12,932 nucleotides of DNA from Akkermansiaceae bacterium (lineage in GTDB: Bacteria > Verrucomicrobiota > Verrucomicrobiia > Verrucomicrobiales > Akkermansiaceae), in assembly GCA_025457805.1 (NCBI GenBank), contig JALOTR010000165.1, forward strand, positions 1 to 12,932, written 5' to 3'. Shown in pieces: positions 5,818 to 10,189 of this stretch. Each line of letters starts with the position of its first letter. Position 1 is the stretch's first letter. Position numbers and translations under genes: made by a program. The notes under the pieces were generated by a model. That model was not told where the DNA came from. It did not search any database and was given only the letters and a program-made list of their open reading frames with translations.

Positions 5818-6237
5818 TCAGGACACATAGCCGAGCCAGGGGCCCAGCCATTTTTCCGCTTCGGCGAGGGGCATGCCCTTGCGTTTGGCATAGTCTTCGA
5901 GTTGGTCCTTCTGGAGCTCGGAGATCATGAAGTAGTGGCTGTCCGGATGCGAGAAGTAGAGCCCGCAAACCGCCGCGCCGGGGTGCATGGCGCAGCTTTC
6001 GGTGAGCGTGACCTCGGTTTCGCCGGAGGCATTGAGGAGATCAAACAGGATCGGCTTCTCGGTGTGGTCCGGCTGGGCGGGATAGCCGGGGGCCGGGCGA
6101 ATGCCGCGGTAGTTTTCATGAATGAGCTGGTCGGTGGTGAGCTCGGTCTCGGTTTCGTATCCCCACTCGATCCGGGCGCGGTGGTGGAGCAACTCGGCGA
6201 AGGCTTCGGCGAAGCGGTCGGCGATGGCTTTGACCAT
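5818..6237 (-). CDS. metH: Methionine synthase reactivation (AdoMet-binding) domain, detached by a frameshift
   Basis: This 139-residue frame, opening at [20 protein letters not shown] and ending [12 protein letters not shown], is the C-terminal end of cobalamin-dependent methionine synthase. It contains RPAPGYP (residues 47-53), the R-x-x-x-G-Y motif that contacts S-adenosylmethionine, and FSHPDSHYF near residue 95. In MetH this domain donates the methyl group that rescues the oxidised cob(II)alamin form. It matches the expected continuation of the larger upstream metH frame, which leaves this frame near 6263. The open stretch begins just after an in-frame TGA (6267-6265), with AHDPYGSI preceding the Met at 6237. 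I read it as part of one gene broken by a single-base deletion or sequencing error. Independent translation from the ATG at 6237 is possible but less likely. Confidence 0.85.
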
Positions 6238-8564
6238 GATCGATCCGTAGGGGTCGTGGGCCTTTCATCCGCGCCGTGGATGCCGACGACGAATCCGCCG
6301 ATGAAATCTTTCGCATCTCCGCATGCCACCCAATCGCTGAGGGCGACGTTGGGCTTGCCGGAGTCTTTTTTGATTTGCTGGCGGAGCGTGTGGAAACGGG
6401 TGCGCTCGGTGGAGCGGGTTTCATCGGTCCAGACAATGATATCATCTCCCGTCGCATTGGCCGGGAAGAATCCGTAGATGCCACGGGCGTGGAAACGGTT
6501 TTCCGCGATGATGCGGTCGATCCATTCCTGTGCTTCCTGATAGAGTTTGGCGGCCTCGGCGGCGCCCTCGGTGTTCTTGGACTTGAGCACTTTGTTTTCC
6601 CGATCCCAAACCCCACGCAGTTCCCATGCGTGGAAGAAGGGTGTCCAATCGATATAACTTGCGAGTTCGCGAAGGTCCTGGGATTCGATCACACGGGTGC
6701 CGGTGAAGGAGGGGACTGGCGGTGTGTAGGCGGACCAATCGAACTTGGGCCCGGCCTCGCGTGCCTGGGCGAGCGTGAGGGTTTCCTTTTTGGGTCCGCC
6801 GATGAAGTTATCACGAAGGACTTTCTGCTTGGCCTTGTTTTCCGCGGCGAAGGCTTCGCGTTGGTCCTTGGAAAGCAGCGAGGTGGTGACTGGCACCGAG
6901 CGCGAGGCATCGAGCACGTGAACCACCGCTCCGGAGTAATGTTCCGCAATCTTGATGGCGGTGTGGGCGGCGGAGGTGGTGGCTCCACCGACAAGCAGCG
7001 GCACCTTGAAACCACGGCGCTCCATTTCCTTGGCCACGTGAACCATCTCGTCGAGCGATGGGGTGATGAGTCCGGAGAGACCGACCACATCCGCGCCGAT
7101 CTCGATGGCTTTATCGAGGATCTTGTCGCAGGGAACCATCACGCCCATGTCGGTGACTTCGAAGCCGTTGCAGGCGAGCACCACGCCGACGATGTTTTTG
7201 CCGATATCATGCACATCGCCTTTCACGGTTGCGATGAGGAAGCGTCCGGCGGAGCGACCGCGCTCGGCGAGGCGCAGGGCCTCGGCGTCGGTTAGGTCGG
7301 GGTTCTCCTCTTTGATGGCGGCGATGTCACCGGCGAGGAACTCGGCCTTTTCCGCTTCCATGAAGGGAGTGAGCCAGGCGACCGCCTTCTTCATCACGCG
7401 GGCGGATTTGACGACTTGGGGTAGGAACATTTTTCCAGCTCCGAAAAGATCGCCGACCACGCCCATGCCATCCATCAGCGGGCCTTCGATGACCTTGAGC
7501 GGGCGTCCGTATTTTTCCAGTGCTGCCTGCGTGTCTTCATCGATGTATTTGTCGATGCCCTTGAGCAATGCGTGTTCGAGGCGTTTTTCCACCGGCTCGT
7601 CGCGCCAGGAAAGATCCTCCTCCACCTTCTTGCCGCCCACGCCTTTGAAACGCTCGGCGAGCTCCAAAAGGCGCTCGGTGGAATCGGCGCGGCGGTTGAG
7701 GAGCACATCCTCGACGTGGTCTAACAACTCCTTCGGAATTTCATCATACACTTCCAGCATGCCGGCATTCACGATGCCCATGTCCATGCCGGCGAGACCC
7801 GCATGATAGAGGAAGGCGGAGTGCATGGCCTCGCGCACCTTGTTGTTGCCACGGAAAGAGAAGGAAATGTTGGAAACACCGCCGGACACCTTGGCTCCGG
7901 GCAGGTTCTCCTTGATCCAGCGGGTGGCATTGATGAAGTCCAGCGCGTAGTTGTTGTGCTCCTCGATGCCGGTGGCGACGGTGAGGATGTTGGGATCGAA
8001 AATGATATCATCCTGATTGAAGCCGACTTCATCGACAAGAATCCGGTAAGCGCGTTCGCAGATGCGGATCTTTTCCTCGTAGGTGGCAGCCTGGCCGTTT
8101 TCATCGAAGGCCATCACCACCACCGCCGCGCCGTAGCGCATGATGTGGCGGGCTTGTTTCTTGAAATTCTCCTCGCCTTCCTTGAGCGAGATCGAGTTCA
8201 CGATGCCTTTGCCTTGGAGATACTTCAGTCCCTCCTCAAGGATTTCCCACTTCGAGGAATCGACCATGATCGGCACGCGTGCGACATCCGGCTCGCCTTG
8301 GAGCAGGCGCAGGAACTTGCCCATCATGTCCTTGCCATCGATCAGGCCGTCATCGAAACAGATATCAATGACATTCGCGCCATTGGCCACCTGCTGGCGC
8401 ACCACCTCCACGGCAGCCTCCAGATCGCCGGCACGGACGAGTTTTGCAAACTGCGGCGAGCCCGCCACGTTGGCGCGCTCGCCAATCATCAGAAAGCGTT
8501 TGTCGGAAGTGTGGTTGTAGGCCTCGGTGCCGGAAAGACGGAGGGCGTGGGGAATGGTTCGCAT
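5925..8564 (-). CDS. metH: Cobalamin-dependent methionine synthase, pterin/cobalamin part, frameshifted near its 3' end
   Basis: This is the C-terminal portion of MetH: methyltetrahydrofolate-binding domain (residues about 20-300, with [23 protein letters not shown] and [11 protein letters not shown]), cap domain, and B12-binding domain with DVHDIGKN (D450, H452 as lower cobalt ligand, G455), [13 protein letters not shown] (495-507) and [10 protein letters not shown] from 526. The reactivation domain starts after about 610. Homology ends at [12 protein letters not shown] (about residue 767); the remaining residues to the stop at 5925 are a Pro/Ser/Thr-rich out-of-frame read. Adding one A to the AAA run at 6263-6265 restores [15 protein letters not shown] and joins the frame ending at 5818, giving about 915 residues. 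The start at 8564 ([12 protein letters not shown]) aligns with the linker before the pterin domain. The frame is open back to 8657, but that part is inside the GxxExxY element. The homocysteine domain is a separate gene upstream. Confidence 0.9.
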
Positions 8565-8576
8565 AGAAGAGGGAGT

Positions 8577-8610
8577 TGAAACGCCAAGACGCCAAGAGCG
8601 CCAAGATTTT
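8577..8610 (+). repeat. Left terminal inverted repeat of the GxxExxY unit
   Basis: The first 20 bases (8577-8596), TGAAACGCCAAGACGCCAAG, are a perfect reverse complement of the last 20 bases of the right arm (9074-9093). After a two-base difference, CGCCAAG matches again and is followed by a T-run (ATTTT here, TTTT in the other arm). The arm thus holds three copies of CGCCAAG. Confidence 0.92.
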
Positions 8611-8616
8611 GAAGAA

Positions 8617-9006
8617 TCAGGATTCGTTGAATTGGTTGGCGATCCGCCGGATGCCATGTTTGATCAGTGGAACATTGAAATTGATGAGCAGTCCGAGCGT
8701 TTTCTCGGAAAGCCTCAGATAGGTCATCAGTTGTGCCTGATGGATGGGAGCCAGTTGCTCGACTGCCTTCAGTTCGATAATCACCGAGTCGTTGACGAGA
8801 ATGTCCAAGCGATAACCAACTTCGATTTCAATCCCGTCATAGTGAACAGGCTGAGGTTTTTGGCGCTCCACCACGAATCCTCGTTTCGTGAGTTCATGAG
8901 CCAGGCATGCCTCGTAAGCGCTTTCCAACAATCCGGGCCCAAGCTTGCTATGAATCTTGAAGGCAGCATCCACGATTTCTTTGGCTATTTCATCAATGGT
9001 ATTCAT
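8617..9006 (-). CDS. GxxExxY-family protein (PD-(D/E)xK nuclease-like)
   Basis: A 129-residue protein of the GxxExxY family (PDDEXK_3-like). The name motif is GLLESAY at residues 25-31, within [22 protein letters not shown]-(D/E)xK-type core follows: D68 in YRLDILV and E78-x-K80 in IIELKAV, then [20 protein letters not shown]. No function is established for the family that I know of; the fold suggests DNA or RNA binding or cleavage. Length is typical and the frame is intact. The gene points the same way as metH and is wrapped by inverted repeats, which suggests it came in as a cassette. The start at 9006 gives the usual N-terminus of the family ([17 protein letters not shown]). No Shine-Dalgarno is seen. 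Confidence 0.92.
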
Positions 9007-9060
9007 GTCAGGAATTTATGTTTGAAAGAGAGGAAAAGGAGTAAAGATCCAACTGATCTA

Positions 9061-9093
9061 AAAACTTGGCGAACTTGGCGTCTTGGCGTTTCA
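9061..9093 (-). repeat. Right terminal inverted repeat of the GxxExxY unit
   Basis: Read on the minus strand this arm is TGAAACGCCAAGACGCCAAG, then TT, CGCCAAG and TTTT, matching the left arm except for the two-base difference and one extra A. Its outer edge lies one base past the TAG stop of the upstream metH half (9097-9095), so the coding end and the arm are almost flush. Confidence 0.92.
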
Positions 9094-9094
9094 C

Positions 9095-10189
9095 CTAACC
9101 AATCACCGGCACGACACGCGGTTGATGTCTGGCGACTCCCTTGGCGATGGCGGCGACGTGTTCGGGGGTGTTGCCGCAGCAGCCGCCGGCGAGGTTGAGG
9201 AGGCCGGCTTCCGCGAAGTCGGACATGAATTTTTCCATGTGCGGGGGTTCGAGGTCGAAGCCGGTGGGTGCGAGCGGATTGGGCAAACCGGCATTCGGAT
9301 AACACGAAACATGAGTGGTGGCGCACTCGGAGAGTTCTTCGAGGTGCGGCTTCATGAGGTCTGGGCCGAGCGAGCAATTCAGACCGATGGCCAGAGGATG
9401 GGTGTGGGCGAAGGCATTCCAGAAGGCTTCCACTTTCTGGGCGGAAATCATGGTTTCCCCACCGAGGCCGACGGCGGCGGAGATGATGATGGGCAAACGC
9501 AAACCGTCTTCCTGATAGACTTCCTGCACGGCGACGGCGGCGGCTTTCGCGTTGAGGGAATCGAAGATCGTTTCGATCATCAAAATATCACAACCGCCTT
9601 CGATGAGGCCGCGGATCTGGTGTTTGTAGGCGGTGAGGACTTGATCGAAGTTCACCACGCGGAAGCCAGGATCATTGGCGTCCGGCGAGTTGGTGAGGGA
9701 AACGGTGAGCGGCCCGATGGCTCCGGCGACGTAGCGCTTGCGGCCGGTGTCGCTGGCGATGTTGTCCGCCCATTTGCGGCAGAGGCGGGAGGATTCGACG
9801 TTCATTTCCCAGGCGAGTTCGTTGAGAAAGGGGTTCTCGATGATTTTCTGGAAGAACTCCGGATCCTTGCGTCCGCCGTGCTCGCGCGGGTCATCGACGA
9901 AGAATTCACTCTGCGCGATGCTGGTGGCGGAGAAGGTGTTGGTTTCGCAAATGTCGGAACCCGCTTCGTAAAAACGCTTGTGGATGTCGCCGATCACGTC
10001 GGGGCGGGTGATGCTCAGGATGTCGCCATTGTTGAGCAAATCCTTGTCCGTATCCGCAAAGCGCGGGCCGCGGGCATCGGCTTCGTTGAGGCCGTAGGTG
10101 CGGATGGTCGTCCCCATCGCCCCATCGAGGACGAAAATCCGTTCGGCGAGGGCGATTTTGAGTTCGTGAGTGCTATCGGGCTGCGGCAT
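9095..10189 (-). CDS. metH: Methionine synthase homocysteine-binding domain as a separate gene
   Basis: A 364-residue homocysteine S-methyltransferase domain equal to the N-terminal module of MetH. It opens with LAERIFVLDGAMGTTIRTYGL and has the ETNTF segment (82-86), GAIGP (156-160) and the three zinc-binding cysteines: C272 in GLNCSLGP and C337, C338 in GGCCGNTP. In intact MetH this domain activates homocysteine to accept the methyl group from methylcobalamin. The protein ends PRVVPVIG then TAG, where fused MetH continues through a short linker into the pterin domain. That continuation is found from 8564 onward, beyond the GxxExxY unit. The two halves together (about 364 plus 915 residues) equal a normal full-length MetH. 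It could work in trans with the other half. The candidate promoter ends only six bases before the ATG, so the mRNA may be leaderless. Confidence 0.93.
   Translation of the reverse strand: MPQPDSTHELKIALAERIFVLDGAMGTTIRTYGLNEADARGPRFADTDKDLLNNGDILSITRPDVIGDIHKRFYEAGSDICETNTFSATSIAQSEFFVDDPREHGGRKDPEFFQKIIENPFLNELAWEMNVESSRLCRKWADNIASDTGRKRYVAGAIGPLTVSLTNSPDANDPGFRVVNFDQVLTAYKHQIRGLIEGGCDILMIETIFDSLNAKAAAVAVQEVYQEDGLRLPIIISAAVGLGGETMISAQKVEAFWNAFAHTHPLAIGLNCSLGPDLMKPHLEELSECATTHVSCYPNAGLPNPLAPTGFDLEPPHMEKFMSDFAEAGLLNLAGGCCGNTPEHVAAIAKGVARHQPRVVPVIG

Follow-up and report, generated by a model that had tools for sequence, protein, structure and literature searches.

What is a short, low-GC cassette made of one small gene and two inverted repeats doing inside a gene for methionine synthase, and are its gene and its repeats functionally related? 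The window in which this locus lies is the whole stretch of 12,932 bp that was analyzed, contig C340 of an Akkermansiaceae genome that is 59% complete and in 736 contigs. In the cassette (Table 1) a GxxExxY gene is flanked by two inverted arms, each with three CGCCAAG heptamers at steps of 8 and 9 bp, and the 20 outer bases of the cassette, TGAAACGCCAAGACGCCAAG, at 8577-8596 are identical to the inverted sequence of 9074-9093. The arms form the longest inverted repeat listed for the window (37 nt, 89% complementary). The GC fraction of the cassette is 0.472 compared to 0.595 for the rest of the window, and a value this low is found in 0.3% of 517 bp windows. An earlier note on this DNA had described a low-GC GxxExxY cassette with inverted CGCCAAG arms, and the identical outer bases, the heptamer positions and the GC values confirm that description; it was also right that the cassette has no transposase, as there is a single gene and PDDEXK_3 is the sole Pfam family above cut-off for its protein. 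A count of the triple CGCCAAG pattern over the genome to which the window belongs gave 13, compared to 0 for the reversed control pattern.

The cassette and the split metH gene

The cassette lies between the two halves of metH, so that a metabolic gene is split in two by such an element. The earlier note made no mention of this split, and the finding is larger than was first reported. The first ATG of the C-terminal half in this reading is 12 bp outside the cassette end at 8577. The MetH activation domain has a separate frame break at ~6237-6262 (Pfam positions 1-136 in one frame and 152-273 in another), which is either a true frameshift or an assembly error. An Rfam search of the window at gathering thresholds gave 0 matches, neither to an intron RNA around the GxxExxY gene nor to an rRNA.

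Table 1. Positions of the cassette, its parts and the neighboring metH reading frames in the window.
Feature	Position (bp)	Strand	Remarks
Cassette	8577-9093		517 bp
Left arm	8574-8610	+	CGCCAAG heptamers at 8582-8588, 8590-8596, 8599-8605
Right arm, inverted	9060-9096	-	Heptamers at 9065-9071, 9074-9080, 9082-9088
GxxExxY protein gene	8617-9006	-	129 aa; predicted PD-(D/E)xK fold
metH N-terminal half	9095-10189	-	Homocysteine S-methyltransferase domain; stop codon touches right arm
metH C-terminal half	5925-8564	-	Pterin-binding, B12-binding and first part of activation domain
Remaining MetH activation domain	5818-6237	-	Other frame; frame break or assembly error

The GxxExxY protein

The assignment of the gene to the PD-(D/E)xK-like GxxExxY family, as originally proposed, is upheld by its profile scores of 153.7 bits against TIGR04256 (cut-off 35) and 148.1 bits against PF13366 (cut-off 22). 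The residues G25xxE28xxY31, D68, E78xK80 and Q92 are invariant in 54 of 54 aligned relatives. The folds nearest to the AlphaFold model of the protein are nucleases, and the fold is predicted to be of the Cas4/RecB-like PD-(D/E)xK type. Its Pfam Cas_Cas4 score is 14.4 bits, below the cut-off of 22.7, and a search of defense families gave E values of 0.00088 for Cas4 and 0.011 for Cas4b; solved structures searched by sequence gave no convincing match (best E 0.78), and the best E in a search of phage families was 0.32.

GxxExxY matches are present in 46 of 96 sampled genomes of the phylum, with up to 12 in a single genome. Genes with one internal stop were seen at G096:C77:642-995, G098:C77:1254-1601, G110:C51:365-715 and G125:C79:4042-4389, and twice in G099 (G099:C1:1649646-1649996 and 2926961-2927302); those of G096, G098, G099 and G125 match the gene of locus L011 in DNA, and the arms listed near the one in G096:C77 are CACGGAA/CACAGAG-like. 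In the accessible parts of the open-access literature (subscription papers and preprints are outside this scope) GxxExxY, PF13366, PDDEXK_3 and IPR026350 are mentioned in passing with function undescribed; nothing in it concerned TIGR04256 or PDDEXK_3 with inverted repeats, and its titles and abstract starts had nothing on such arms. An earlier description is possible.

Arms accompany GxxExxY genes and differ between them

How regularly do such arms accompany GxxExxY genes? An inverted arm pair (score ≥30) is present at 65 of the 78 assessable named GxxExxY loci, compared to 3 of 390 positions drawn at random from these loci. The named loci are the best 80 of 521 confirmed loci and were found with the window's protein, so they are its close relatives; 78 of them have enough flanking DNA. 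The 65 arm-bearing loci span ~12 phyla as read from record titles, among them Verrucomicrobiota, Bacteroidota, Cyanobacteriota, Chloroflexota, Planctomycetota, Acidobacteriota, Desulfobacterota, Pseudomonadota and Calditrichota, and they are not independent because orthologous Flavobacterium and Verrucomicrobia loci make up a good part of them. When the named loci were pooled with the metH loci and with 80 further stretches, chosen from the GxxExxY matches listed for genomes of the phylum with contig-edge and weaker ones excluded, 3 cassettes were too short and 168 of 203 assessable cassettes reached an arm score of 30, and several of the 35 below this cut-off have recognizable heptamers.

A typical arm consists of three heptamers CRCNRAD separated by 1-3 bp spacers, and this strict triple is present on both flanks of 90 of the 203 cassettes; CACTGAA-like and ACAGGAT-like arms were also seen. 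Cassettes differ in heptamer word and in spacing, whereas the left and right arms of a single cassette match in both. Spacer lengths are equal on the two sides in 84 of the 90 strict cassettes, compared to 22% when cassettes are paired at random. The left and right arms are 0.89-1.00 identical at all heptamer positions but the fourth (0.65), with positions 1, 3 and 6 fixed by the search pattern itself, and 0.52 identical in the spacers. Between different cassettes of equal spacing, the arms have identities of 0.54, 0.34, 0.65 and 0.75 at positions 2, 4, 5 and 7, respectively. These comparisons place the window's cassette in a very widespread family of compact elements, each with a gene and two inverted arms that are typically triple heptamers.

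Paralogues within one genome tend to have arms of their own. For example, the two further GxxExxY genes in the window's own genome have the arm words CACGGAA (L010) and CACTGAA (L011). The mean arm score within a cassette is 46.4 (n=95, selected for a score ≥30), and between cassettes of one genome it is 12.7 (148 pairs, each the mean of four comparisons). Arm similarity tracks protein identity within genomes (r 0.41), a value reached by 0 of 2000 within-genome permutations. At the sequence level, arms are shown by this to match the lineage of their GxxExxY gene.

A close arm pair in L003, the one pair that was folded as DNA, gives a strong hairpin (-30.2 kcal/mol, z -7.7), and five single arms folded as DNA do no better than shuffles (z -1.21 to 1.19). 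An RNA stem is unlikely to be the main constraint on the arms because the spacers differ between them.

Arms dispersed without a gene

The strict arm pattern is present in 43 of the 96 genomes of the phylum, and a reversed control pattern occurs 0-2 times per genome. Thirty-nine genomes have GxxExxY and arms, 7 GxxExxY only, 4 arms only and 46 neither (Fisher 4e-15, uncorrected for kinship), and there are 1524 strict arms in the 46 GxxExxY-bearing genomes compared to 7 in the 50 others. Among the gene-only genomes, G090 has an ACAGGAT-like word and G040 has arms that lack the AACC start demanded by the pattern (L032 and L020). The contrary possibility raised in the earlier note, that the arms are widespread repeats with no tie to GxxExxY, holds in that most arms have no adjacent gene, and fails in that arms are found almost only in genomes that also have GxxExxY. 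On these counts, dispersed gene-less arms, many of them in inverted pairs, co-occur with GxxExxY across genomes.

The orientation of neighboring arms was tabulated as follows: within 600 bp the typed lists hold 27 convergent, 0 divergent and 8 same-strand neighbors, further typed lists (including G004) hold 26, 6 and 22, respectively (one convergent pair is common to both), and with a looser pattern the pairs less than 150 bp apart in the analyzed loci number 75, 25 and 37. Inverted pairs prevail among arm neighbors, and tandem arms are common. Strictly inverted pairing, suggested at first by 27 of 27 convergent opposite-strand neighbors, was abandoned with the 6 divergent pairs in the further lists.

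In five congeneric genomes there are 4-23 CGCCAAG triples and no GxxExxY protein that reaches 67% identity to that of the window; the 23 are in G113, which is 97% complete. Genomes with CGCCAAG triples are 6 of the 7 that have such a gene and 8 of the 14 that do not, and G124 has 15 arms and no match to the window's protein. A strict tie of one heptamer type to one gene type within the genus therefore fails for CGCCAAG. CACTGAA arms are listed only in G000, G101, G109 and G113, all of which have that cassette (14 first-look candidates were scored per genome). At L007 (1501-1802) a CACTGAA-like pair is nested inside a CGCCAAG arm pair with no GxxExxY gene. Arms in genomes without a matching gene may be relics or may have been moved by another enzyme; REP singlets are taken as relics in the available portion of one account (PMC3116915).

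Filled, empty and exchanged sites

Does the cassette come and go as a unit? At the metH linker of 19 congeneric genomes (the window's own included) a GxxExxY gene lies between the halves in 14, metH is split without the gene in 3, contiguous in 1 (L152, where the contig ends and the C-terminal half matches over 45 residues at only 60% identity) and cut off in 1 (L142). One of the split genes without GxxExxY, L143, has a single arm. In the other two, L131 and L132, a GAAACG that resembles an arm's outer end is left, which may be an arm remnant or the scar of an excision or deletion. Elsewhere in the order, 11 of 11 genomes from outside the genus have metH in one piece and in frame, and four further named records (L045, L051, L061 and L075) have a cassette at the metH site, with L058 partial. 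The protein identity of both metH halves is ~80-93% in the 13 further congeners with a cassette at this site. In most genomes of the genus that were seen metH is divided into a pair of conserved frames, which possibly encode a working two-piece methionine synthase.

The cassettes at this site differ much more than their surroundings. The 13 congeneric metH-site GxxExxY genes are 38-53% identical to the window's, and the adjoining metH part is 86-93% identical. L045 and L125 are an example: their metH protein parts are 99.0% and their flanking DNAs 93.7-95.1% identical, and their GxxExxY proteins are 54.6% identical with CGCCAAG arms in one and CGCGGAG arms in the other. The corresponding metH and GxxExxY values are 98.5% and 56.9% for L126/L128 and 96.7% and 52.1% for L133/L135 (L127 was left out of the pair comparison as its match is short), and in such pairs the high similarity stops at the arms. 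Turnover is not constant, because other close pairs share their cassette (L126/L129 at 99.2% and L134/L136/L137 at 91-94%). The genes at one site are so far apart in identity that replacement is not fully distinguishable from very rapid evolution in situ.

A second site is the gap between pheS and pheT. Six congeners have the window's gene type there (67-82% identical protein), with exact CGCCAAG triples on both sides in G105 and G099 and on one side in G108, and with shorter or altered arms in G103, G109 and G125. The window's own genome has only 61 bp and no cassette between these genes, G106 and G100 have an arm-only pair, G098 has a single arm, and the gap is nearly empty in G111 (1 bp) and G096 (8 bp). 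In G110 and G104 (L324 and L325) it is occupied by a four-helix-bundle gene (PF05635) with inverted arms of 7 bp period, whose arm score is clear in G104 (36 compared to a shuffle maximum of 29) and marginal in G110 (25 compared to 24); four-helix-bundle genes are perhaps a second gene family with the same inverted-arm layout. Elsewhere, G109, G113 and G101 have a cassette at the L011 site, which is empty in G096, G108, G111 and G125, and the L010 site has no cassette in G125 and G113. The search proposed in the earlier note, for many arm copies flanking GxxExxY genes or for empty sites, has thus turned up both. Judged from the aligned genomes, gene and arms are present, absent or replaced together at chromosomal sites such as the metH linker and the pheS-pheT gap. 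No target-site duplication of constant length was seen: direct repeats of 6-10 bp flank 8 of 167 cassettes compared to ~2.5 expected, an excess of varying length that is partly A-rich.

A putative repeat-nuclease system and its alternatives

We favor, at a probability of roughly 60%, a repeat-nuclease system that works like REPIN/RAYT, in which a Cas4-like PD-(D/E)xK protein would recognize and move the arms. The protein would recognize the heptamers of its own arms and would nick or cut at paired arms, or at a hairpin formed by them, and host repair or replication could then carry a copy of the cassette, or of an arm pair, to a new position or exchange one cassette for another. A stably inherited enzyme would in this way maintain dispersed inverted repeat pairs as in REPIN/RAYT, with an unrelated enzyme and an unrelated repeat. 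We know of no case in which a PD-(D/E)xK nuclease fold drives transposition alone. The purifying selection and mostly conserved arms in Flavobacterium (below) also count in its favor. Against it speak the absence of a target-site duplication of constant length, the CGCCAAG arms in genomes with no close gene and the 15 arms of G124, the 35 cassettes below the arm cut-off, and arm neighbors that are not in every case inverted. The earlier note proposed a compact cassette with arms that are recognized by the nuclease-like protein or by a host enzyme. This is partly supported overall: association, co-variation and site turnover speak for arms that belong to the nuclease-like protein.

Could the arms instead be terminal repeats mobilized by a different enzyme, such as a RAYT/TIRYT-like tyrosine transposase, with GxxExxY genes as passengers settling between paired arms? 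TIRtrons, in which a RAYT-like gene lies between TIRs that have further copies dispersed in the genome, are known from the accessible text of PMC3733652. The PF05635 gene with its inverted 7 bp-period arms shares the pheS-pheT site in two congeners, so the use of such arms is apparently not confined to a single small gene family, and arm-bearing genomes without a matching gene exist. However, 81 of 83 convergent pairs 150-600 bp apart (looser pattern) contain GxxExxY, a count biased by loci that were chosen for GxxExxY or are flanks of GxxExxY sites and with seven wider pairs outside it, and the arms track the identity of the GxxExxY protein, which is not required of a passenger. We consider this explanation unlikely.

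Less probable still is that GxxExxY is a domesticated host protein, such as a regulator or a repair or defense nuclease, and that the arms by its gene and elsewhere are its binding sites, with no movement of DNA by the protein. In its favor, purifying selection is strong in the one locus analyzed in 14 Flavobacterium species (dN/dS 0.05 over 66 pairs), where four of the five arm blocks are 0.85-0.92 conserved and the fifth 0.47, compared to ~0.61-0.67 for the surrounding upstream intergenic DNA. Likewise, few plasmids (8 of 72,556 records) and no phages (0 of 50,697 records) have a match to the window's protein, and carriage by either was rejected. Such a host protein is at odds with the empty and filled orthologous sites, with the differing cassettes at one site and with the same gene type at two loci in the genus. 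An RNA-level intervening sequence, whose arms would pair in the transcript and be processed as in 23S rRNA intervening sequences, is very improbable: the L003 hairpin (folded as DNA) and the interruption of metH fit it, but the agreement between arms in spacers (0.52) and at heptamer position 4 (0.65) is unlike a pairing constraint, each of the two metH frames that remain ends or begins with a stop or start of its own, and the window has no Rfam match.

If the repeat-nuclease system exists as proposed, it would explain a large class of short intergenic repeats (the 1524 strict arms in 46 genomes). The arms are candidate substrates for GxxExxY proteins; they lie beside most of the genes and differ between paralogues, and the function is therefore directly testable. 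The gene-arm sets constitute a natural collection of candidate protein-DNA recognition pairs.

Comparison with known systems

The cassette resembles a classical insertion sequence in having terminal inverted repeats around a gene, but no DDE, HUH, tyrosine or serine transposase is encoded in it. A group I or group II intron with a homing endonuclease would include an intron RNA, for which the window gave 0 Rfam matches. Among the Cas4/RecB-like nucleases, SSO0001 has 202 residues compared to 129 in the window's protein, which also scores below the Cas_Cas4 cut-off (above). Intervening sequences of 23S rRNA are similar in that a small gene lies in a short element, the S23/four-helix-bundle gene element in Coxiella is called a selfish element in the available part of PMC4990558, and a congeneric four-helix-bundle gene with inverted arms uses the pheS-pheT site. 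They differ in that an unrelated S23/four-helix protein lies in rRNA, whereas here PDDEXK_3 lies in metH with no rRNA match, and the four-helix-bundle arm unit in the genus is GATNGNA-like with a period of 7 (by eye), other than the GxxExxY arm unit.

TIRtrons, as outlined in the accessible text of PMC3733652, have a RAYT-like gene between terminal inverted repeats with repeat copies elsewhere in some genomes, and so share with GxxExxY cassettes a single gene between inverted repeats that have copies elsewhere. Their enzyme is a tyrosine transposase, unlike GxxExxY. Triple-heptamer arms go unmentioned in the descriptive text available, and some TIRs might equal the arms described here.

The closest parallel is REPIN/RAYT. 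According to the portions of PMC3116915 and PMC8049555 available, it has an enzyme gene beside repeats, dispersed repeats of which many are inverted pairs with a short spacer and can form hairpins, a repeat type tied to the enzyme lineage, and long chromosomal persistence with hardly any presence on plasmids. Within that reading of the two papers, repeats both adjacent to the gene and dispersed, many of the latter as inverted pairs able to form hairpins, a lineage-tied repeat type, long chromosomal persistence and rarity on plasmids are common to it and the GxxExxY system. REPIN/RAYT repeats are for the most part inverted doublets; here inverted pairs prevail and tandem arms are common. However, the REPIN/RAYT enzyme is an HUH tyrosine transposase of the IS200/IS605 group whereas GxxExxY has a predicted PD-(D/E)xK fold, the single REPIN/RAYT repeat is a folding palindrome whereas the single GxxExxY arm is three direct heptamers that fold like shuffles, and GxxExxY, unlike REPIN/RAYT, is multi-copy, with up to 12 matches in a genome, and is not the same in relatives at one site. 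The element has a fair chance of deserving a class of its own. We tentatively suggest, with somewhat less than even confidence, a class of elements, mobile or domesticated, present in about a dozen bacterial phyla, whose lone Cas4-like PD-(D/E)xK protein of ~120-130 residues would read the tandem heptamers of its own inverted arms as a code, with a word and a spacing particular to each lineage, and would keep gene-less arm pairs in the genome, REPIN-like in its working and independent in origin.
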